The notes beneath the pieces are model-generated. The model worked only from the letters and a program-made list of their open reading frames with translations. It ran no database searches and was not told where the DNA came from. 14,208 bases of DNA, from NCBI GenBank assembly GCA_002728035.1, contig PBUZ01000084.1, forward strand, positions 6,425 to 20,632, read 5' to 3'. Made by a program: the position numbers and the translations under genes. Origin of the DNA: Methanobacteriota archaeon (GTDB lineage: Archaea > Thermoplasmatota > Poseidoniia > Poseidoniales > Poseidoniaceae). How positions within the stretch are numbered: position 1 is the first letter of the stretch; each line of letters opens with the position of its first letter. Shown one piece after another: positions 421-14,068 of the stretch.

Positions 421-977
421 TGGCCGTGAGACCAATACCTGTGCATGCCCTTTGGCTCGCACAAGATGACCCAAAGAAGAACACCGCTGTTTTGGCCAGT
501 AAACGGGGCGATATGACCCTGCACAAAACCGTACGTTCGGTCCCAAAACGAGGGGTCATCCTCGAACCACTTTGCGGTAAGGTCTTCGGACCCGAAGACC
601 ATGCACTCTTGACCGAACAACATGGAGCCCTTGTCGGCCTGGATTGCAGTTGGGCACACATTGAATCCTCGGTTGAACGCGTGATGAAGAACACACGGCT
701 CACTCCTCGAATGTTACCGCTTCTTCTCGCCGCCAATCCAGTCAACTGGGGAAAACCTGGTCGCCTGACGACGGCCGAAGCCCTTGCAACCGTGTTGTAC
801 CTCATGGGGCGAAAAGAACAGGCTTCGCAAGTGCTCGGCGCATTCCGGTGGGGTCAACGTTTCTTTGAATTGAACAGAGAGCCTCTGGATGCCTATGCTG
901 CGGCGAAATCCAGTGAAGAACTGGTCGCGCTTCAGTTTGAATTCTTCGACATTGAGCGTCATCATGAGGAGGCTTGA
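420..977 (+). CDS. tsr3: 16S rRNA aminocarboxypropyltransferase Tsr3 (DUF367)
   Basis: Tsr3 transfers the 3-amino-3-carboxypropyl group of SAM to a modified uridine in small-subunit rRNA, a late ribosome maturation step shared by archaea and eukaryotes. From the ATG at 420 the protein is 185 aa, about the usual archaeal length. Family motifs are in order: an N-terminal stretch LAQDDPKKNTA, then LDCSW at residues 74-78, then NPVNWGKPGRLTTAEA starting at residue 106, then FRWGQRFFELN. These form the SPOUT-like SAM-binding core. Starts at GTG 417, ATG 420 or GTG 426 are all possible. GAGGTGA at 414-420 would sit well as a Shine-Dalgarno for GTG 426, so the first two residues are uncertain. It overlaps the end of mbf1 and its own stop lies just before the fdhD start. 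Confidence 0.94.
   Translation: MAVRPIPVHALWLAQDDPKKNTAVLASKRGDMTLHKTVRSVPKRGVILEPLCGKVFGPEDHALLTEQHGALVGLDCSWAHIESSVERVMKNTRLTPRMLPLLLAANPVNWGKPGRLTTAEALATVLYLMGRKEQASQVLGAFRWGQRFFELNREPLDAYAAAKSSEELVALQFEFFDIERHHEEA
966..972 (+). promoter_or_regulatory. Shine-Dalgarno site deciding the fdhD start
   Basis: GAGGAGG lies inside the end of tsr3, 7 nt before a GTG at 980. The upstream in-frame TTG at 974 is only 1 nt from this site, so GTG 980 is the better start for FdhD. Confidence 0.7.
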
Positions 978-979
978 CC

Positions 980-1771
980 GTGCCAAGATACCAGCGTCAA
1001 GGGGTGCATCGTTGGAAACAAGACGAATTCGTCTTCGACAACGACATGTTGGCCAACGAAGGATTGGTTCACCTTCATGTCAATGGAAAACGCCTCACCT
1101 CATTGCTTGCCAGCCATGAAGACCTCGTCGAACTCGGCGTCGGTCATGTGACGGCTGAATACCAATCCTTTGACCCCGCATTGATCGATGTTGAAGTCGA
1201 ATACGGGAAAGATGAAGCCAAAGTTGACATGCATGGTCCCTTTGATGTCGAAAACTGGACCACACGGGACCGAGTGGTGACCACCTCATGTGGAGCATGT
1301 GAACATGATGCATTGCCTGCTATGCTCGCAACTTCGAACGTTGTCAATGCCGTCCATCCCGTACGACATATGCACTCCATAGAACATGCTTTCCAGGCCA
1401 TGAAATCTTCGCAGGACGGTTTTCGGATGACGGGTGGCTTGCATGCCGCTGGTCTTCTGTATGAGGGGGATGCTGTCCGTGTGATGGAAGACATTGGACG
1501 ACACAATGCTGTTGACAAGATCATCGGCGCCCACGTCCTGTCGAATGAGCAACATGAACCACATGTCTTGTTACTCTCGGGGAGATGCGGCTGGGATATC
1601 GTCGCAAAAGCATCCAGATTCAATATCCCCATCATCGCGTCCATCGGTGCGGCATCGTCTCTCGCAGCGACTGCTGCACGAGCATCAAACATCACCCTCG
1701 TGAGTTTCTTGAGAGACGGAAAAGCCGTCATTATTGGACCCCTTAAGGACAGAATAAAGGCAAAGGATTGA
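980..1771 (+). CDS. fdhD: Formate dehydrogenase accessory sulfurtransferase FdhD
   Basis: FdhD passes sulfur to the bis-MGD cofactor of formate dehydrogenase-type enzymes; in the family the two cysteines of the SCGxC motif are the sulfur carriers. Here TTSCGAC gives C104 and C107 (counted from GTG 980). Other family landmarks are GGLHAAGL at about residue 150, EDIGRHNAVDK starting at residue 170, and LSGRCGWDIVAKA, which corresponds to the usual SGR...E-V-KA segment. The 263-aa length is normal for the family. It sits directly before its likely client enzyme, the molybdopterin oxidoreductase at 1807, with only 35 nt between them. One oddity is that the second cysteine is followed by Glu-His, where bacterial FdhD commonly has Gly. 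Identification is firm; the client is inferred from neighbourhood. Confidence 0.95.
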   Translation: MPRYQRQGVHRWKQDEFVFDNDMLANEGLVHLHVNGKRLTSLLASHEDLVELGVGHVTAEYQSFDPALIDVEVEYGKDEAKVDMHGPFDVENWTTRDRVVTTSCGACEHDALPAMLATSNVVNAVHPVRHMHSIEHAFQAMKSSQDGFRMTGGLHAAGLLYEGDAVRVMEDIGRHNAVDKIIGAHVLSNEQHEPHVLLLSGRCGWDIVAKASRFNIPIIASIGAASSLAATAARASNITLVSFLRDGKAVIIGPLKDRIKAKD

Positions 1772-1796
1772 GAAGGTGGTGGCTCGCCACTGGGTT

Positions 1797-1802
1797 GAGG
1801 AG
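1797..1802 (+). promoter_or_regulatory. Shine-Dalgarno site for the molybdopterin oxidoreductase
   Basis: GAGGAG sits 4 nt before ATG 1807. The frame is open upstream to a TTG at 1768 that overlaps the fdhD stop, but that TTG has no ribosome-binding site and adds a Trp/Arg-rich stretch unlike the family. ATG 1807 is preferred. Confidence 0.65.
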
Positions 1803-1806
1803 TTCC

Positions 1807-4095
1807 ATGCGCGAACCATCCAGAGCCCGAACACCTCCCGACCGGGCTGGACTGAAACTCCGGAAGCCGAAGACCAAAGCTGCAGGCCTTCCAGCAGTGA
1901 CCTCCTCAGCCATTCATGGCATGACAAAGATGGGTGTTCGAAAAACCGTCAAAACACTCACCATGGTCAATCAACAGGATGGTTTCGATTGCCCTGGTTG
2001 TGCATGGCCCGACCCCGAACACCGCACATCATTTGAATTCTGTGAAAACGGCGCAAAAGCCGTTGCAGATGAAGCCATGAAAGCCCATGTTACGCCTGAA
2101 TTTTTTGAGAAGCACTCCGTGCAATCCCTTTCTGAGATGAGTGATTACCAACTCAACCGAATGGGGAGAATCGAGCAACCCATGCACCTCTCTGCAGGCG
2201 AATCCCATTATCGTCCAATTTCTTGGGAGGACGCTTTTTCGACCATCGCTCAACACCTTCAGGCCGCTCCTACTCCCGACCATGCCGTGTTCTATACCTC
2301 CGGCAGGACAAGCAACGAAGCCGCATTCCTCTACCAGGCCTTCGTGAGGGCCTACGGAACCAACAATTTGCCAGACTGTTCGAACATGTGCCACGAATCC
2401 AGCGGCAAAGGCCTCGGTCAAACCATCGGCATAGGGAAAGGAACGGTGACGTTGGATGATTTTGATCATGCAGATGTGATCATGGTCATCGGACAAAACC
2501 CTGGTACGAATCACCCGCGCATGCTCACGGCATTGCGTGACGCCAAGAAACACGGTGCCAAGATTGTTCACATCAATCCACTTCCAGAAGCAGGATTGCA
2601 GCGCTTTAAACACCCGCAAGATTACATGAAAGTGAATCTGAAATCGACCACATTGGCCGATATTCATCTCCCAGTTCGCATTGGTGGCGATGCTGCCCTC
2701 ATCAAAGGCCTCATCAAAACACAACTCACACACGATGCAGTTGACACTTCATTCATCGATTCCAAAACTTCGGGGTATCAAGCCATGGTCTCGTCATTGG
2801 AGGGCATTGATTGGGACCGAATTGAGCGCGATTCAGGACTCACACGGCACCAGATTGAACAAACAGGCGCTCTCCTCGCCAATTCCAAGGCCACGATTGC
2901 GTGTTGGGCAATGGGTCTCACGCAACACAGAAACGGCGTTGCTGTTATTCAGGAGGTGGTCAATTTGTTGTTGCTGAACGGTCATGTCGGCCGAAAAGGC
3001 GCAGGGTTTTGTCCCGTTCGTGGCCATTCCAACGTGCAAGGAGACCGCACGGTTGGCATTTGGGAAGCGCCATCATCTGCCTTTTTGGAGCGGATGGAAG
3101 AAGGGCTGGGCTACACCTTGCCAACGCACCACGGCTACGATGTCGTCAACGCCATTCAAGCGATGATCGACGGCAAAGTGAGTGTGTTTTTCTGCCTTGG
3201 CGGTAATTTCCTCTCGGCTACGCCAGACACCGATGCAACAGCCGATGGTATTCGAAACGTCCCGCTCACGGTTCAAGTTTCAACCAAACTCAACAGGTCA
3301 CATCTTGTGACAGGAAAAGAAGCCATCATCTTGCCGTGTTTGGGGAGAACTGAACACGATGACCAAGCCTCAGGTGCTCAATTTGTGACCGTTGAAAACT
3401 CAATGGGCATCGTGCATCGTTCGACAGGTGGATTGATTCCAGCCTCGCCCATGTTACGTAGCGAACCCTGGATTGTTGCACAGTTGGCTCAGGCAACGCT
3501 TGGTGATGAGACCCTGCCGTGGCTCCACCTGGTCGAAAATTACGACCGTATTCGAGATTTGATGGAAGCCTCACTCAACGGATTTGACAATTACAATGAA
3601 CGCGTACGCCAACCCAATGGATTCGCCCTTCCCAACCCCCCCAGAGATGCGCAGGAGTTTCGAACACCTGACCAGCGGGCCCAGTTTACGACCCACGACT
3701 TACCTGAAGTTGAATTGCCACCGGACCATTTTGTTATGATGACCTTGCGAAGTCACGATCAGTACAACACCACCATCTACGGATTGCATGACCGGTATCG
3801 AGGCATTCACGGCCATCGCCGCGTGGTGTTGATGAACGCCGAAGACATGGTTGAACGAGGCTGGAAAGCCCGTCAAGTCGTCAACATTACCAGCCATTTT
3901 AACGGTGAGCAACGAACTTCAGACAGGTGGCTCTTAATCCCTTACGAAATACCACGTGGAAACCTTGCCACCTATTTCCCAGAGGCCAACAGTCTCGTCC
4001 CTCTGCATTCAACAGCCGATGTCTCCAACACGCCGACCTCAAAGTGGATAGTCTGTACACTTTCGACCTCTGAGGCCGCTGACGAGGAGGAGTGA
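1807..4095 (+). CDS. Molybdopterin-dependent oxidoreductase, YdeP/FdhA-like (formate dehydrogenase alpha family)
   Basis: This 762-aa cytoplasmic protein belongs to the DMSO-reductase superfamily, in the subgroup of E. coli YdeP (FdhA-like alpha subunit). After a basic N-terminal extension of about 55 residues, GFDCPGCAWPDP supplies C62 and C65, and EFCENGAKAV supplies C79, an Fe-S-type cysteine cluster. FYTSGRTSNEAAFLYQ and GTNNLPDCSNMCHE follow. C195 in MCH aligns with the Sec/Cys Mo ligand next to the conserved His in formate dehydrogenases. GQNPGTNHPRML and HVGRKGAGFCPVRGHSNVQG are bis-MGD binding segments. The C-terminal molydopterin dinucleotide-binding domain contains YNTTIYGLHDRYRGIHGHRR. 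The closing residues are acidic. No signal peptide or Tat motif is visible. The preceding fdhD fits cofactor sulfuration. No electron-transfer subunit is nearby, so the substrate is not proven to be formate. Confidence 0.92.
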   Translation: MREPSRARTPPDRAGLKLRKPKTKAAGLPAVTSSAIHGMTKMGVRKTVKTLTMVNQQDGFDCPGCAWPDPEHRTSFEFCENGAKAVADEAMKAHVTPEFFEKHSVQSLSEMSDYQLNRMGRIEQPMHLSAGESHYRPISWEDAFSTIAQHLQAAPTPDHAVFYTSGRTSNEAAFLYQAFVRAYGTNNLPDCSNMCHESSGKGLGQTIGIGKGTVTLDDFDHADVIMVIGQNPGTNHPRMLTALRDAKKHGAKIVHINPLPEAGLQRFKHPQDYMKVNLKSTTLADIHLPVRIGGDAALIKGLIKTQLTHDAVDTSFIDSKTSGYQAMVSSLEGIDWDRIERDSGLTRHQIEQTGALLANSKATIACWAMGLTQHRNGVAVIQEVVNLLLLNGHVGRKGAGFCPVRGHSNVQGDRTVGIWEAPSSAFLERMEEGLGYTLPTHHGYDVVNAIQAMIDGKVSVFFCLGGNFLSATPDTDATADGIRNVPLTVQVSTKLNRSHLVTGKEAIILPCLGRTEHDDQASGAQFVTVENSMGIVHRSTGGLIPASPMLRSEPWIVAQLAQATLGDETLPWLHLVENYDRIRDLMEASLNGFDNYNERVRQPNGFALPNPPRDAQEFRTPDQRAQFTTHDLPEVELPPDHFVMMTLRSHDQYNTTIYGLHDRYRGIHGHRRVVLMNAEDMVERGWKARQVVNITSHFNGEQRTSDRWLLIPYEIPRGNLATYFPEANSLVPLHSTADVSNTPTSKWIVCTLSTSEAADEEE
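4084..4090 (+). promoter_or_regulatory. Shine-Dalgarno site deciding the MFS start
   Basis: GAGGAGG lies within the last codons of the oxidoreductase, 7 nt before ATG 4098. The upstream in-frame GTG at 4092, overlapping the stop, is only 1 nt away and is less likely. Confidence 0.7.
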
Positions 4096-7366: not shown

Positions 7367-9397
7367 ATGGAGGATACGTTCCTTGGTTTTCGTACCTCTC
7401 TTTCAGAAGGCATACCCGACTCACTCCCGAAACCTCTTCCGCTCGACGATACCGTCGACCACGCTCCAAATCGTCGCCAAATCCTTAACCCCGAGGAGAA
7501 GAAAATGGCATTGCGTAACGCTTTACGCTACTTCGATGCAAAACATCACGCTGAATTGATTCCAGAGTTTTTGGATGAATTGAATTCATTCGGCCGCATC
7601 ATCATGAGGCGTTTTCGGCCGACTGAATATGAAATGAAGGCACATCCACTGTCTGCTTACCCCGCGAAAACCCCTCAAGCCGCAGCCATCATGTTGATGA
7701 TTCAGAACAACCTTGATCCAGCCGTAGCACAATTTCCACACGAATTGATCACCTATGGTGGAAACGGTTCTGTTTTCCAGAATTGGGCCCAATACCGTTT
7801 AGCGATGAAGTACCTCTCGGAGATGACAAATGAACAAACGTTGGTGATGTATTCCGGCCATCCCCTTGGGTTGTTTCCGTCTTCATCGCATGCCCCGCGT
7901 GTGGTCATCACCAACGGAATGGTCATACCCAATTACTCAAGCCAAGAAGCCTATGAAAAAATGAATGCACTTGGCGTCACACAGTACGGGCAAATGACTG
8001 CAGGTTCGTACATGTACATTGGCCCCCAAGGCATCGTCCACGGGACCACCATCACGCTCCTCAACGCCGCACGCCTTCATCTTGGACTGAATGATGAGGC
8101 CACACTTGCAGGCGTGACCTTCATCACCAGTGGACTTGGAGGAATGTCGGGCGCACAAGCGAAAGCAGCCACCATCGCGGGTGCATCCTGCATCATTGCT
8201 GAAACGAATAAACACGCTGCAGTCAAGCGACATCAGCAAGGATGGCTGACCTGTGTGACCGAAGATATCGATGAAGCGATTGACCTTATGGTGTCAAACG
8301 CAAAGGAAGGGGCTGCGATTTCGATAGGTTTGGTTGGAAACATCGTTGAATTGTGGGAACGGTGTGTCGAGCGTAACATCAAGGTCGACCTCGGCAGCGA
8401 TCAAACCAGCCTGCACAACCCCTACCAAGGTGGATATTTTCCAGCAGACCGGACCTATGAAGAGAGCGCTGCCATGCTGTCAAGTTCACCAGACCAATTC
8501 AAAGCAGAGGTCCAGGCGACCCTCCGCCGTCATGCGAACGCTGTCAACATCATGGCTGAACGCGGCATGTACTTTTGGGATTATGGAAACGCTTTCCTTC
8601 TTGAGGCTTCAAGAGTTGGGGCTGACGTCGTCAATGAAGACGGCTCCTTTCGATACCCATCCTATGTTGAGGACATCATGGGTCCCTTGTGCTTTGACTA
8701 TGGCTTTGGGCCGTACCGGTGGGTGTGCACCAGCGGCGACCCTGAAGACCTCGAAAAGACGGATGCAATCGCTGCCGGTGTGTTGAGGGCCATGCTAGAG
8801 GAAGCCTCGCCTGATGTACGACAACAGATCAACGATAACCTGCGTTGGATTGAGCAGGCTGGTAAGAACAACATGGTTGTTGGAAGCCAAGCGCGCATCT
8901 TGTATGCGGACGATGTCGGTAGGCGAGCGATTGCATTGGCAATGAATGAAGCCATTGGTCGCGGTGAAATTGGACCCGTTGTCCTTGGTCGTGATCACCA
9001 CGATGTGTCAGGAACAGACAGCCCTTACAGAGAGACATCAAACATTCGAGATGGTTCAATGTTCACTGCGGACATGGCAGTGCAAAATGCACTTGGAGAT
9101 GCCTTTCGAGGTGCTACATGGGTGAGTTTGCACAACGGCGGAGGCGTTGGCTGGGGTGAGGTGATCAACGGAGGTTTTGGTCTTCTCTTGGACGGTAGCA
9201 AAGATGCTGAACAGCGTCTCCAAAACATGCTCCATTGGGATGTGAACAACGGCGTAGCTCGACGAGCATGGGCCCGAAATTCTGGGGCTCAAGCCGCGAT
9301 TCTAAGGGCAATGGAACGGGAACCTAATCTAACAGTCACCATGGCGCAACATGTTGATGATGACCTTCTCAACGCACTTACGGAGGACCAGTTATGA
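7367..9397 (+). CDS. hutU: Urocanate hydratase (urocanase), long type
   Basis: Urocanase uses tightly bound NAD+ as an electrophile to hydrate urocanate to imidazolonepropionate, step 2 of histidine breakdown in the cytoplasm. The protein is 676 aa, the long form known from animals and some bacteria, versus about 555 aa for the Pseudomonas type. Diagnostic segments: ALRNALRYF at residues about 48-56, NNLDPAVAQFPHELITYGGN, MYSGHPLGLFPSS, TSGLGGMSGAQAKA (NAD-binding), VDLGSDQTSLHNP, FWDYGNAFLLEA, RWVCTSGDPEDL with C454 as the probable active-site-region cysteine, RDHHDVSGTDSPYRETSNI, and HNGGGVGWGEVINGGFG. ATG 7367 is kept as start because the N-terminal part before residue 48 resembles that of long urocanases. 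No Shine-Dalgarno is seen, so the message may be leaderless. Its stop overlaps the hutH start (ATGA). Confidence 0.97.
   Translation: MEDTFLGFRTSLSEGIPDSLPKPLPLDDTVDHAPNRRQILNPEEKKMALRNALRYFDAKHHAELIPEFLDELNSFGRIIMRRFRPTEYEMKAHPLSAYPAKTPQAAAIMLMIQNNLDPAVAQFPHELITYGGNGSVFQNWAQYRLAMKYLSEMTNEQTLVMYSGHPLGLFPSSSHAPRVVITNGMVIPNYSSQEAYEKMNALGVTQYGQMTAGSYMYIGPQGIVHGTTITLLNAARLHLGLNDEATLAGVTFITSGLGGMSGAQAKAATIAGASCIIAETNKHAAVKRHQQGWLTCVTEDIDEAIDLMVSNAKEGAAISIGLVGNIVELWERCVERNIKVDLGSDQTSLHNPYQGGYFPADRTYEESAAMLSSSPDQFKAEVQATLRRHANAVNIMAERGMYFWDYGNAFLLEASRVGADVVNEDGSFRYPSYVEDIMGPLCFDYGFGPYRWVCTSGDPEDLEKTDAIAAGVLRAMLEEASPDVRQQINDNLRWIEQAGKNNMVVGSQARILYADDVGRRAIALAMNEAIGRGEIGPVVLGRDHHDVSGTDSPYRETSNIRDGSMFTADMAVQNALGDAFRGATWVSLHNGGGVGWGEVINGGFGLLLDGSKDAEQRLQNMLHWDVNNGVARRAWARNSGAQAAILRAMEREPNLTVTMAQHVDDDLLNALTEDQL
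9382..9386 (+). promoter_or_regulatory. Shine-Dalgarno site for hutH
   Basis: GGAGG in the 3' end of hutU, 7 nt before ATG 9394. It supports translation of hutH from the same message. Confidence 0.65.
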
Positions 9398-10944
9398 CAC
9401 AGACCACCGTCTATGTTGACGGAAACACGCTTTCACCACAAGAGGTCGCGATGGTCGCAGACCAACGAGCTAAGGTCGCAGTATCCGATGATGCGTGGCC
9501 ACGCATCCATGCAGCAAGGTCTGTCGTTGACCGTATTGTTTCGACTGGAGAGACCGTTTACGGCATCAATACGGGATTTGGCGCCTTGGTCCATGAACGC
9601 ATATCTTCAGAGGATATCGCACAACTTCAACTGAATTTGATTCGCTCACATGCAACGGCTCTGGGTGATCCTATGGATGCAGAATCCGTGCGCGCAATGA
9701 TGCTTATTCGATTAAATTCTCTTTGCAAAGGACATTCAGGCATTCATCCAGACTGCATCAATCAACTCGTTGATTTCCTCAATCACGGCATCCACCCTCA
9801 TGTCCCCAGAATCGGTAGTTTGGGCGCGAGCGGGGATCTCGCTCCACTCTCTCATTTGGCCCTCGCCATGATCGGTGAGGGGAAGGTCTTGAAGGAGGAT
9901 GCGTTCGTTGATACGAAGGATGTACTCCTTGAAACTGGACTCGTCCCAGTCACCTTGTCAGCCAAAGACGGCCTCTCACTGATCAACGGCACGAGTCAAA
10001 TGACCGCGTTCGCCACATTGGCTCACCAACAACTGCAGCAATTGTTGATCCTGGCAGACCTCGTTCTCAGTGCATCCATTGACGCACGGCAATGCAGCCT
10101 GACGCCGATGAGGGATGACATTCACGCCGCACGACCACATCCTGGGCAACGTTTGGTCGCCCAACGTTTGCGTGAGATTTTACAAAACTCACCGATTTTG
10201 AATGATCATGCAAATTGCGAACGGGTACAAGATCCGTATTCCTTCCGCTGTTCACCTCAAGTCCATGGTGCCGTGTATGAATCGTTTCAACGCCTCGGTG
10301 AGATGTTGCATGTGGAAATGAACAGTGCCACCGACAATCCACTCATTTTCCCTGACCCCAGTCAACCCGGTCCGCACGAAGTGGTCTCGCAAGGTAACTT
10401 CCATGGTGAAATCGTTGCACTTACTTGCGATGCAATGAGTCTTGCTCTGTTTGAATTGGGGTCAATCTCAGAGCGGCGTATTGACCAAATGCTTGATCCC
10501 GCACGCAGCGACTTACCAGCGTTTCTAGCGAAGGATTCTGGTTTGGAATCGGGGTACATGATTGTGCAATATGTGGCAGGTGCTGCACTTGCTGAGTTGC
10601 ATGGCCAAGCAACGCCTCGGAGTGCATTTTCAACATCTACTTCGGCAGGCCAAGAAGACCACGTCAGCATGGGTGCAACAGCAGCGTGGAACCTCCTTCT
10701 TGGCGTAAAGCGATTGGCTGAAGTGATTGCGTGCGAAGCATTGGTTGCCTTTGAGGCGCTGGAACACAACACGCTCGGCTCCTCCCCACATGTAGAGGGG
10801 CTTCGTATGTTGGTCCGTACCGTATCGCGACCCTTTGATGAGGATCGTTCGACATCTGCAGAACTCGTTGAACTCGCACATCAATTCAGATGCGGCGGAT
10901 GGTTGGCTCGTCTCGAAGCGGAGTACGGCCGATTACCTCGTTGA
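9394..10944 (+). CDS. hutH: Histidine ammonia-lyase (histidase)
   Basis: HutH removes ammonia from L-histidine to give urocanate, the first step of the histidine utilisation pathway, and hands its product to HutU. The 516-aa protein has the aromatic amino-acid lyase fold. The motif GSLGASGDLAPLSHLA contains Ala145-Ser146-Gly147, which cyclise to the MIO electrophile. Other landmarks are YGINTGFG near the N-terminus (catalytic Tyr loop), NGTSQM, the ATDNPLIF segment that binds substrate carboxylate, QGNFHGE, and the C-terminal SAGQEDHVSMG. These favour histidase over phenylalanine/tyrosine lyases, as does linkage to hutU. Translation is coupled to hutU by an ATGA overlap. The gene converges on the DUF835 gene with a 12-nt overlap of their ends. 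Confidence 0.97.
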   Translation: MTQTTVYVDGNTLSPQEVAMVADQRAKVAVSDDAWPRIHAARSVVDRIVSTGETVYGINTGFGALVHERISSEDIAQLQLNLIRSHATALGDPMDAESVRAMMLIRLNSLCKGHSGIHPDCINQLVDFLNHGIHPHVPRIGSLGASGDLAPLSHLALAMIGEGKVLKEDAFVDTKDVLLETGLVPVTLSAKDGLSLINGTSQMTAFATLAHQQLQQLLILADLVLSASIDARQCSLTPMRDDIHAARPHPGQRLVAQRLREILQNSPILNDHANCERVQDPYSFRCSPQVHGAVYESFQRLGEMLHVEMNSATDNPLIFPDPSQPGPHEVVSQGNFHGEIVALTCDAMSLALFELGSISERRIDQMLDPARSDLPAFLAKDSGLESGYMIVQYVAGAALAELHGQATPRSAFSTSTSAGQEDHVSMGATAAWNLLLGVKRLAEVIACEALVAFEALEHNTLGSSPHVEGLRMLVRTVSRPFDEDRSTSAELVELAHQFRCGGWLARLEAEYGRLPR

Positions 10945-11799
10945 AAGAAGATTCACCAACTCTTGTTCAACTTCGTTGATGTTGGAGAGGGCCATCAAGC
11001 GATAGTGGAACACTTCACGCTCCGTGACCGAGAGCATCTGCTTATTCGCCTCCAACAATCTCATCAAATCAATCGCTTTTGAAACATCGTGTTCCACAGA
11101 GGAATACAGGTTGTGGGCATCATCCATGTTCCTCATTGCAAGAGCGGGTTCCAACATGGCAAGGTCGAATCCCATTCGCCTCCACTGCAACATTCGACGT
11201 GACAGGATGGTCGTTGTAAATCCAGCAAGGGGTAAAGGGACCAGATGAGTGAGTTGTTTTTCTTCTTCCAAGGAATTGACGTTCGAATGTTGAGGCACTT
11301 CTCGAGCATCTGCGCTTTCAAGAACGATGTCTTCAGAGAATGAAACTATCGAATCAGAGAGGTGGTGTGAGGGGGCAATCGACCTTATTCTCGTCCAAAA
11401 CTGTGCCCTGAACGAAAGCGGGTCGACAGGGAGAAGGATAGTGAAGTCATTTGCACGCGAACGGCCATCCAAGGTCTGCAAATAACGCAAGACGCCCTGC
11501 TCGCCTTCCTTGGAGACGAGCCAGTCCAGTCCCTCGATCACAACGACGTCGTTTGAAGCAGGTGCATACGCCTCAAGATGATTGAGCAGTGATGTGGTGT
11601 TTGGCGGGACAGATTGTCCAGTTTCTTGTTCAGATATCCACCACATACTGGCTTGATTGGATTCCACGTAGCGGAGCAATTGCCGCATGGGCAAGCGACT
11701 GTAGCAGTGGAGGTGCCCTGAGGATAAGTCCTCAAGTCTGTCCAAGTGGGCGTAGAGCTGAGGAGATTGTGCGATTTCAACGCTGTAAAGACCAGACAT
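10933..11799 (-). CDS. DUF835 domain protein
   Basis: A soluble 288-aa protein with no membrane helix or signal. The N-terminal half (about residues 5-155) matches the DUF835 pattern, a RecA/KaiC-like remnant common in Thermoplasmatota and Thermococci: CYSRLPMRQLLRYVE early, then WWISEQETG, VVVIEGLDWLVSKEG (Walker-B-like hydrophobic strand), and ILLPVDPLSF. It lacks a P-loop, so ATP hydrolysis is unlikely. After an acidic linker, the C-terminal part (about 205-288) is helical, with RRMLQWRRMGFDLAMLEPAL followed by a helix of the VEHDVSKAIDLMRLLEANK type; I recall similar W-x3-G-x-D helical modules in marine Thermoplasmatota proteins. GGAGGGGAGGGC just before the ATG is a strong Shine-Dalgarno. 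It is divergent from the EF-hand gene. Signalling or scaffolding is a guess only. Confidence 0.82.
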   Translation of the reverse strand: MSGLYSVEIAQSPQLYAHLDRLEDLSSGHLHCYSRLPMRQLLRYVESNQASMWWISEQETGQSVPPNTTSLLNHLEAYAPASNDVVVIEGLDWLVSKEGEQGVLRYLQTLDGRSRANDFTILLPVDPLSFRAQFWTRIRSIAPSHHLSDSIVSFSEDIVLESADAREVPQHSNVNSLEEEKQLTHLVPLPLAGFTTTILSRRMLQWRRMGFDLAMLEPALAMRNMDDAHNLYSSVEHDVSKAIDLMRLLEANKQMLSVTEREVFHYRLMALSNINEVEQELVNLLSTR

Positions 11800-11911
11800 C
11801 GCCCTCCCCTCCTCTTCAATGGAGTTGCTGGAGTCCTAAGGAATTAATCCTCTTCTTTCCAACTTTCCATCAAGCATTATATTGCCCCACTTCTTCCAAA
11901 GACTAGGTGGA
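11800..11911. promoter_or_regulatory. Divergent promoter region between DUF835 and EF-hand genes
   Basis: On the + strand ATTATATT (11876-11883) is a good archaeal TATA box, about 30 nt before the ATG pair at 11912/11915. An imperfect palindrome AGGAATTAATCCT spans 11839-11851; its TTAAT core could be the TATA element of the DUF835 gene. GGAGGGGAGGGC on the - strand (11812-11801) is the DUF835 Shine-Dalgarno. Confidence 0.55.
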
Positions 11912-13693
11912 ATGATGGCAGAGGAAGAAAAAGAGAAAGTCGCCATGGCAGAATGTGGCGCTTGTCGTGCAATTATTCCTATTGATTCAAAGGAATGTCC
12001 GGAGTGCAATACAAAATTCACTGGCCTTTCGGATGAAGCGCTTGGCGAGTGTGGTGCTTGTAACGCGCTGGTTCCTCTTGATTCAACCCGCTGTCCCGAA
12101 TGTGGCGTCGTGTTCGTCGCCGATGATGTTGTTGATATCCTGCGAACATGGATTGCCGATACAGGCCTCAACATTCGCAAGTTGTTTGACAAGTTTGACG
12201 AAAACGACGACGGAACCATCGACTCCAATGAACTTCGCGCTGGCCTACTCAGCCTGAATCTCGCTGATCTGCCGCCCTCTCAGGTTGACCGGTTGGTCAA
12301 TGAAATCGATGCAGATGGAAACGGCGTCATTGACTTGGATGAATTTGAGACCATTCTCACTGGAGAAGAACCTTCAGCCAGTGACGAGGATGTTGCGCAA
12401 GCTACCCAAGAAGAGGCATCCGACGAAAGCGAGGCAGAGGAGTCCGAGGATGACGTCGAGGAAGATGCAGGCGACGAATCCGATGAAGGAGAAGAAGTGG
12501 ATCCCGAACCGGAAGATGCGGCTGAACAGGATACCGAAGGAGAAGAAGTCGATGACCCGTCGGATGAGGACGAAGACGATGCCACTGATGACGAAGGCGA
12601 GGGTGAAGAAACTGCTCACGTCGACGACATTGAAAACGAAGAATTCGACCTTGAAGAGGAGGAAGAGCCGGCGGTCCATCCGCTCGCAGCACTCGCAGAA
12701 ACCATGGATGAAAACGACATTTCAGCACAACGAATGTTCAACGACCTCGATGCCGATGGCAACGGTATGATTTCCTTGTCGGAACTCAAATCAACCTTGC
12801 TCGAATCTCATGGAGAGAACTTCAGTGAAGAGGATATCGAGGCAATGATGGAGGGAATTGACACGGATGGCGACGGGATGATCGACGTCACGGAATTCAT
12901 TGGTTCGCTGGAATCATTGGACGACCACGAAGAAGCGCTTGCAGCCCATAAGCAAGAGCGCGAATTCCCCACTCCTATGCAAAAGCGTATGATGTCAAAA
13001 ATGTGGGTCGACAATCTTTGGCCAATCATCCACGTTGGATTTGGTATTCTCATCGCACTCGTTCTCGTCAACGCCTTGATCGGTCCTGTTGATGGTTCGG
13101 GAGGTTCCATAGAATATGTCCCAATTGAAAACAATCCGTTCATCGTTCAAGATTTGAATCCAGGAGATGTTTACCCATGTGATGAACGCTATCAAGACGG
13201 TGGCTGTGCCAATTCCTTGACCCCGTTCGCGGGCGAAAATGGAGCATCTTCAATGCCGAAGGGCTTCTACTTGGATGGCGTCATTTTGCTTCTTATCTCG
13301 GTTGTTGGGCTATGCGGTTCTCTTTTCATCCATCTCATCAAGGTCCCCGCCTGGCGCGCACGGGTGAAGGCCATGAGGGAATTTGACGAGGACAAGTCAG
13401 ACGCATCAGAACTCGCCGAAGAGGAACACGAGAGCGAAGATTCAGAAGACGATGACTCCGAAGATGAAGAGGTCGAAGAGGACGCCGATGAAGATGTCGC
13501 CGAAGAGGAAGATGAGGGTGAAGAGGACGATGATTCCATTGACATCGGCTCTCACATCGGCCTTCTGTTCGACGATGAGGAAGTCTTTGGAACCATTTTG
13601 GAATTCGACGATGACGAAGGCACCGTTACAATTGAAGAGGACGGAACGGGTGACTTGGTCACTGGATATCAGGAAGACATGTTCCTTGAGTGA
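11912..13693 (+). CDS. Membrane protein with two zinc ribbons, four EF-hands and acidic linkers
   Basis: Not a named family that I recognise; domains are clear. From ATG 11912 it has 593 aa. Two zinc ribbons lie at the N-terminus: C15/C18/C29/C32 and C47/C50/C61/C64, each followed by the same IP/VP-hydrophobic pattern, as if duplicated. Four canonical EF-hand loops follow: DENDDGTIDSNE (96-107), DADGNGVIDLDE (133-144), DADGNGMISLSE (280-291) and DTDGDGMIDVTE (317-328), all with Asp/Asn at ligand positions and Glu at position 12. A Glu/Asp-rich linker of about 120 residues separates the two EF pairs. Membrane helices are at about 370-391 and 456-477, with a roughly 65-residue loop between them that contains a Cys pair. 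A second acidic stretch precedes a small beta-rich (SH3/KOW-like) tail. EF-hands and zinc ribbons are predicted cytosolic. An upstream TTG at 11882 is an alternative start but overlaps the TATA box. Ca2+ sensing is inferred. Confidence 0.85.
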   Translation: MMAEEEKEKVAMAECGACRAIIPIDSKECPECNTKFTGLSDEALGECGACNALVPLDSTRCPECGVVFVADDVVDILRTWIADTGLNIRKLFDKFDENDDGTIDSNELRAGLLSLNLADLPPSQVDRLVNEIDADGNGVIDLDEFETILTGEEPSASDEDVAQATQEEASDESEAEESEDDVEEDAGDESDEGEEVDPEPEDAAEQDTEGEEVDDPSDEDEDDATDDEGEGEETAHVDDIENEEFDLEEEEEPAVHPLAALAETMDENDISAQRMFNDLDADGNGMISLSELKSTLLESHGENFSEEDIEAMMEGIDTDGDGMIDVTEFIGSLESLDDHEEALAAHKQEREFPTPMQKRMMSKMWVDNLWPIIHVGFGILIALVLVNALIGPVDGSGGSIEYVPIENNPFIVQDLNPGDVYPCDERYQDGGCANSLTPFAGENGASSMPKGFYLDGVILLLISVVGLCGSLFIHLIKVPAWRARVKAMREFDEDKSDASELAEEEHESEDSEDDDSEDEEVEEDADEDVAEEEDEGEEDDDSIDIGSHIGLLFDDEEVFGTILEFDDDEGTVTIEEDGTGDLVTGYQEDMFLE

Positions 13694-13696
13694 GCC

Positions 13697-14068
13697 ATGA
13701 CCGATACGAATCCTCTCGATTCCTTTCGTGGCCTTGCCGCATGCCCTGTATGCGGTTGTCTTGAGCGAAAAGGCATGTATCGTTGCCCAGAATGTGGTAC
13801 CTTTCACGCAGGCTCGATCATGGAAGAACGCGAAGCGCCTCCGGTTCAAATGCAGGTTGAGGTTGATGAAAAGACGATTGACCCGAGCGTGTATTCGCTT
13901 GGACCGAATGCAACCATTCCCGAAGAATCCTTTGACGAGTCAGACGACGTCCGTTCATGGGATGGCGGTTCGACCGATTTTTCATTTGATGAGGATGAAG
14001 AGTTTGAGATGCCGAGCGAACCGTCCAAGGCCTTACCCGTCGAGGTACTTTCAAATGAAGATGAGTGA
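13697..14068 (+). CDS. Small zinc-ribbon protein with acidic tail
   Basis: A 123-aa protein of unknown function. The N-terminus carries one zinc ribbon: C16/C19 in CPVCGC and C30/C33 in YRCPECGTFH. The rest is low-complexity and acidic (for example FSFDEDEEFEMP) with no membrane helix, likely disordered. The ribbon resembles those of the preceding EF-hand protein, and the ATG starts 3 nt after that gene's stop, so the two are very probably co-transcribed and may act together. Possible roles are an adaptor or metal-bound scaffold; nothing in the sequence decides this. Confidence 0.8.
   Translation: MTDTNPLDSFRGLAACPVCGCLERKGMYRCPECGTFHAGSIMEEREAPPVQMQVEVDEKTIDPSVYSLGPNATIPEESFDESDDVRSWDGGSTDFSFDEDEEFEMPSEPSKALPVEVLSNEDE

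Follow-up and report, generated by a model that had tools for sequence, protein, structure and literature searches.

A predicted four-EF-hand, double zinc-ribbon membrane protein encoded in a conserved three-gene module of Poseidoniales archaea

Calcium signalling is regarded as mainly eukaryotic, and we know of no established calcium signalling system in archaea. Calmodulin and centrin carry two EF pairs with canonical ligands, whereas STIM1-type sensors place EF hands on a membrane protein. The Poseidoniales, which to our knowledge are uncultured, are probably among the most abundant archaeal groups of the ocean. PMC9258230 describes families of calcium-binding proteins that are specific to both families of Poseidoniales; its section 9, on modules 135 and 45, mentions neither an architecture nor a gene module nor a DUF835 partner. 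The iKaiC/DUF835 proteins of PMC5847659 form a further point of reference in its accessible text: the third gene of the module described here likewise passes the Pfam cut-off for DUF835, but no receiver or PAS domain was found in it, unlike the architectures tabulated there, and it has a C-terminal tail of its own.

The window, by which we mean the whole 14,208-nucleotide stretch of DNA analysed, comes from a Poseidoniaceae genome, about 80% complete, whose 1.84 Mb lie in 115 contigs, and encodes a protein combining zinc ribbons, EF hands and a predicted membrane hairpin, hereafter the EF protein (Table 1). Like calmodulin and centrin, which are its top structural matches, it has two EF pairs with canonical ligands, but these are split by a long acidic linker, and a predicted membrane part, zinc ribbons and a barrel are added, the superposition being loose. 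Like STIM1-type sensors, it bears EF hands on a membrane protein, but it differs from them in having four EF hands, two helices, ribbons and a predicted cytosolic side; it scores 11 bits against the STIM1 EF model (cut-off 32.2) and 46.3 bits against the XopAW calcium-binding family NF041410 (cut-off 120). Its putative calcium binding would be a feature in common with the families of modules 135 and 45, and an overlap with the families of PMC9258230 is possible. No description of the three-gene module was found in the literature search listings, which surfaced that same paper. What is new is the full architecture and the module, whereas the component parts are known. We tentatively favour the reading that the EF protein is a cytosol-facing, Ca2+-responsive membrane scaffold that recruits the DUF835 protein and a small zinc-ribbon partner.

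Table 1. Coordinates of the module genes and of their parts in the window
Feature	Position	Strand	Details
DUF835 (inactive-KaiC type) protein, divergent gene, third module member	10933..11799	-	288 aa
C-terminal tail of DUF835 protein	10987..11244	-	
Conserved intergenic element TAAGGAATTA	11837..11846	+	exactly one occurrence in window
Conserved intergenic element ATTATAT	11876..11882	+	block ATTATA in relatives
EF-hand/double zinc-ribbon/two-helix membrane protein gene	11912..13693	+	593 aa
Zinc ribbon 1	11948..12019	+	Cys 15, 18, 29, 32
Zinc ribbon 2	12044..12115	+	Cys 47, 50, 61, 64
EF-hand loop 1	12197..12232	+	DENDDGTIDSNE
EF-hand loop 2	12308..12343	+	DADGNGVIDLDE
Acidic linker between EF pairs, predicted disordered	12365..12670	+	102 aa, residues 152-253, 57% D/E
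EF-hand loop 3	12749..12784	+	DADGNGMISLSE
EF-hand loop 4	12860..12895	+	DTDGDGMIDVTE
Membrane helix 1, predicted	13007..13081	+	
Inter-helix loop, predicted outside	13082..13255	+	Cys 423, Cys 432
Membrane helix 2, predicted	13256..13351	+	
Second acidic linker, before tail	13382..13534	+	residues 491-541, 69% D/E
C-terminal beta barrel, small, predicted	13535..13690	+	
Partner gene	13697..14068	+	one zinc ribbon and conserved acidic tail, consensus WDGGSTDF

The EF-hand assignment is supported by both profile and motif evidence. PF13499 matches two stretches of the protein (E 2.1e-24; 86.1 bits, cut-off 30) and the Pfam model EF-hand_1 matches four, in agreement with the four complete loops reported by the first-pass annotation. 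Four strict EF loops were counted in the protein, whereas 5000 shuffles of its residues gave 0.0026 on average and never more than 1, so that a chance origin is ruled out. For the two zinc ribbons of that annotation, the PF12773 double zinc ribbon model falls just short of its cut-off (27.0 bits against 27.3), but all eight ribbon cysteines are kept in every one of the 25 aligned proteins. No single Pfam or NCBIfam model covers the whole architecture. The more likely start codon is the next ATG, at 11915, which is favoured because the conserved GGTG and ATG columns of relatives align there. The second zinc-ribbon gene was correctly placed, its ATG following the EF stop codon after 3 nt.

Conservation was assessed on 25 full-length EF proteins including that of the window, with duplicate loci counted once and truncated or broken copies excluded (L012, L014, L020, L022, L023, L024 and L029). 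Loop position 1 is Asp in 99 of 100 loops, the remaining one holding an ambiguous base, and position 12 is Glu in all 100. Position 6 departs from Gly in loop 3 of seven proteins and in loop 2 of three, which means that some sites could be inactive in some relatives; two relatives carry additional loops (two more in L046, one more in L043). The partner gene adjoins the EF gene in all 25 loci, cut by the contig end in L003. With the ligands and the gene pair conserved, the relatives do not show the loss of EF ligands or of the neighbouring gene that the first-pass annotation had named as evidence against its own reading. A static arrangement, in which EF pairs permanently occupied by Ca2+ or Mg2+ only stabilise a membrane assembly that does not switch, would fit the constraint on the loops equally well and agrees with the degeneration of loop 3 in several relatives. 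Glu at position 12 is a Ca2+-type ligand, however, and its retention in every loop, together with the presence of paired sites, which are typical of cooperative sensors, argues against such an arrangement, and we consider it unlikely.

Constraint differs among the parts of the protein. Estimated from five close pairs, for which many values were saturated and ranges are given where computable, dN/dS is 0–0.01 in the ribbons, 0.02–0.10 in the EF pairs, 0.02–0.06 in the membrane part and 0–0.04 in the barrel; the acidic linkers, at 0.15–0.45, are the least constrained part, and the partner protein lies at 0.04–0.08. As judged from these comparisons, every domain of the EF protein is under purifying selection, with loose linkers. 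The inter-pair linker, put at roughly 120 residues in the first-pass annotation, counts 102 in the window and varies in length among relatives; because it is variable and least constrained, a tether fits it better than the tuned buffer or spring suggested there. A protein whose acidic linkers (57% and 69% D/E) and EF loops simply soak up Ca2+ would account for the abundance of acidic residues, but the weak constraint on the linkers, the single copy of the EF gene in nearly all genomes, and the ribbons, barrel and two conserved neighbours, which buffering does not need, make this highly improbable. The EF gene is nearly always single-copy, two separate membrane-part matches being seen in G010 and G072.

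The predicted model, built with 59 sequences, has a mean pLDDT of 62.5 and a pTM of 0.23. It contains four EF helix-loop-helix units, arranged as two EF pairs, and folds them as units, so the EF segments are not mere low-complexity sequence. Helices span residues 362–389 and 450–510 and overlap the hydrophobic stretches at about 366–397 and 449–480, between which Cys 423 and Cys 432 lie, in line with the two membrane helices and Cys-containing loop of the first-pass annotation. Its beta-rich tail corresponds to five short C-terminal strands at 547–591. Residues with pLDDT below 50 number 183 of 592, mainly in the linkers and including 153–252 and 509–540; the EF pairs and the barrel are thus predicted to be folded, with disordered acidic tethers in between. 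The nearest solved structures are calmodulins and centrins, with a loosely fitting superposition (best E 5.8e-05, rmsd 15, target TM-score 0.34). In a barrel-profile search of seven genomes, the EF gene alone was matched in six and nothing in the other (G050).

The hairpin is flanked by five basic residues on the EF side and five on the tail side, as compared with two among 61 in the loop, and the predicted topology has the two ends in the cytosol and the Cys loop on the outer side. The conserved Cys pair of the outer loop would fit a disulfide. Seawater is high in Ca2+, and an inverted protein, with its EF hands outside and held together by millimolar seawater Ca2+, could be imagined on that account; the positive-inside residue counts, the ribbons, whose free cysteines suit the cytosol, and the Cys pair, which suits an outer-loop disulfide, speak against it and leave it very improbable. 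The cytosol-facing scaffold remains our favoured orientation.

The partner model is poor (pTM 0.30). Against solved-structure sequences the partner gives ribbon-level matches only (best E 0.019), and against the FmdB-type zinc ribbon TIGR02605 it scores 14.4 bits (cut-off 31.3). The third member of the module matches PF05763 DUF835 at 38.4 bits, above the cut-off of 33.1, and it gives no useful match among solved-structure sequences (best E 0.53). A search for a receiver or PAS domain in it found none. Its most conserved 20-residue window is 201–220, and its C-terminal tail was matched once each in seven of seven module genomes and in none of five others, among the 12 searched. A calmodulin-type target helix was considered for this tail, in the best-conserved stretch of the DUF835 protein, and weakened, the basic charge being lost in several members: in five members of the second family, the net charge of the tail helix is -3, -1, 1, 2 and 3. 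As this charge is not conserved, the helix is retained only as a candidate contact. The DUF835 and EF genes are divergent and have a common intergenic region, in which TAAGGAATTA and ATTATA blocks are nearly invariant and GGTG lies ahead of the start, as compared among the window and 16 same-genus relatives, with two full-length relatives (L032 and L042) left out. These blocks are promoter-like.

The three genes hold a fixed place in the genome. In 20 of 20 long loci, which were selected by their EF match (16 from the first family, 4 from the second), the DUF835, EF and partner genes follow hutH, and the DUF835 gene always lies between hutH and the EF gene; the two-gene cassette of the first-pass annotation is therefore better described as three genes. 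The fetched loci run hutU, hutH, module, with hutI further downstream in most; hutU and hutH were confirmed in the window and hutI in L080. A tRNA-Val gene lies downstream in 18 of the 19 loci scanned (L042 was left out), farther off in some loci of the second family, and the remaining contig ends early. Such an order, together with the absence of both hutU and the module from G090, would suit an accessory to histidine catabolism. Module-free loci count against this: all 11 that were read, drawn from 15 module-free genomes with hutU (genera g7, g8, g9, g11, g13 and g15), contain hutU, hutH and hutI. Since the hut genes persist without the module in 11 of 11 loci, the role is rejected as the main reading and is very unlikely.

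In 10 of these 11 loci (L067–L076 and L085), an AlaX-like ORF occupies the module slot between hutH and hutI, next to a tRNA-Val gene; masked bases hide the slot in L074. One AlaX-like copy scores 173 bits against AlaXM, below the cut-off of 300, and lies above the cut-off for tRNA_SAD. The window also holds FdhD-like and FdhF/YdeP-type molybdopterin oxidoreductase genes at 974–4095, and FdhD-like and/or FdhF/YdeP-type genes lie upstream of hut in L080, L081, L082 and L083. At the usual hut place of G033, L084 contains a very divergent hutU-like copy (7934–9637, minus strand; 37% identity) on a very long branch.

The module is lineage-specific, being found in one order among the genomes searched. 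A single EF protein sequence run against the named genome contigs found no relative, and a search of 243 genomes across the phylum, relatives included, gave weak matches at most outside the order (best E 4.5e-6). Within the order, the partner profile matched 127 of 292 genomes at E 2.1e-23 or better and fragments in G014 and G283, whereas in the other 31 of the 160 matching genomes the matches are weak (E 7.2e-6 or worse), and the listed ones fall on the ribbon part. With the membrane-part profile, 119 of the 292 genomes gave a match. Both were found in 115 genomes and are adjacent and in order in 112, a contig end splitting the other three; the partner alone was matched in 12 and the membrane part alone in four. 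Of the partner-only genomes, G043, G057 and G087 do carry the EF gene, its membrane part having diverged. The placement in Poseidoniales is supported by the source name of one close protein match (P0085) and by traits that agree with published accounts; two partner matches carry other source names, P0171 (Thermoplasmatota, which would include the order) and P0204 (Woesearchaeota), the latter perhaps a misplaced contig.

For the third gene, 54 genomes were chosen, and 24 of them have a clear DUF835 match (E 2.4e-11 or better). Of these 24, 21 have the partner, and in the other three (G034, G095 and G162) the contig ends within the module. Seven genomes have the partner without a clear DUF835 match (G170, G195, G209, G216, G224, G226 and G270), and neither was found in G038, G042, G090 and G243, the contig of G042 ending after hutU. 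The 19 genomes of genera g7, g8, g9, g11, g13 and g15 show no clear DUF835 match and no clear partner match. The module occurs in the first family and in three genera of the second; the two families are probably Poseidoniaceae (MGIIa) and Thalassarchaeaceae (MGIIb), respectively.

In a tree of a marker that we take from its sequence to be Kae1, one branch (SH-aLRT 100, quick method) has all 11 module-free genomes on the same side, and the joint absence of the three genes may reflect one gain or loss event. Because these genomes lie on one side of one branch, joint absence is weak proof of joint function. The hutU tree agrees with the Kae1 split except for the very long branch of L084, although a single change appears in only 34% of bootstrap trees. 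G090, lacking both hutU and the module, may represent a second event. In the hutU tree, the g14 copies stand beside a genus of the first family (97/98), which hints, on tree evidence, at an exchange of the hut stretch between families; the DUF835 tree does not show this exchange, its g14 row being a long branch.

Archaellum and glycan traits have been described in MGIIa and some MGIIb (accessible text of PMC6336850 and PMC6461757), and the module distribution broadly resembles that of the glycan-degrading lineages given there. A link to the archaellum suggests itself from the KaiC-like DUF835 protein, which shows a weak similarity to ArlH (NF052589, 18.2 bits against a cut-off of 215), and from archaellins in a similar set of lineages: among the genomes tested, all 12 of the first family, all 9 of g10 and 5 of the 6 of g14 gave an archaellin match. 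By comparison, the partner occurs without an archaellin match in seven genomes, G195 and six g12 genomes out of eight tested (G043, G057, G087, G134, G209 and G224), and four genomes (G037, G041, G056 and G090) have an archaellin match and no partner or clear DUF835 match. As the distributions disagree both ways in the 54 genomes searched, regulation of the archaellum was set aside as very improbable.

EF pairs are widespread in these archaea. PF13499 is found in 17 of 17 lineage genomes (2–13 stretches each; 16 of 17 over the cut-off), as compared with 1 of 14 control genomes, so the view that paired EF hands are uncommon in archaea does not hold for this lineage. EF pairs are also joined to other membrane proteins. 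A NuoL-like protein of 863 aa (L098:984-3572, minus strand; G000:C31:20483-23071) carries an EF pair of about 90 residues inserted inside the complex I subunit; the inserted pair shares 38% identity with the first of the window protein's EF pairs. The insert is aligned through in 4 of 22 matching genomes, three from the genus (G000, G023 and G029) and one from the other family (G050). In the other 18, the first match ends at about 440–457, and 16 resume at about 539–547, as if the pair were cleanly absent. An amino acid permease (L101:1176-2834, minus strand) combines PF13520 with a C-terminal PF13499 EF pair, and a 661-aa protein (L099:1929-3911, minus strand), rich in membrane helices by eye, has a C-terminal EF pair and no other Pfam match.

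The protein of L095 (1132–3678, minus strand) and L096 carries, after an apparent single membrane helix, a zinc ribbon/EF pair unit that resembles the EF protein's ribbon 2 and first EF pair (38% identity); it differs in having one EF pair and a propeller-like N-terminal part, to which weak, sub-threshold matches point. The claim of an unrecognised architecture thus stands insofar as no Pfam or NCBIfam model spans the whole protein, but not for the ribbon/EF unit, which recurs in this other protein of a relative. Because EF pairs are common in the lineage and this unit recurs, only the full combination is special.

In the Ca2+-responsive scaffold reading, which we hold as a working proposal, the EF-hand pairs would bind and sense Ca2+ in the cytosol, and Ca2+ binding would alter the pairs, leading them to hold, or else to release, the DUF835 protein's tail or the conserved tail of the partner, these two tails being the likeliest contacts. 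The acidic linkers would serve as flexible tethers, and the zinc ribbons and barrel as docking surfaces. No enzymatic domain was seen among the module proteins, so the module would act by positioning or regulating other proteins at the membrane. A broader and rather unlikely extension is that Poseidoniales possess a cytosolic calcium signalling of their own, with EF pairs on membrane machines and the module as a dedicated hub that reads calcium at the membrane and passes the signal on to a receiver of inactive-KaiC type and a zinc-ribbon adaptor. With the conserved four-EF module, archaeal calcium signalling can be studied on expressed proteins, although the group is not known to be in culture. 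If true, the Ca2+-responsive scaffold would stand out as an unusual form of archaeal calcium signalling.
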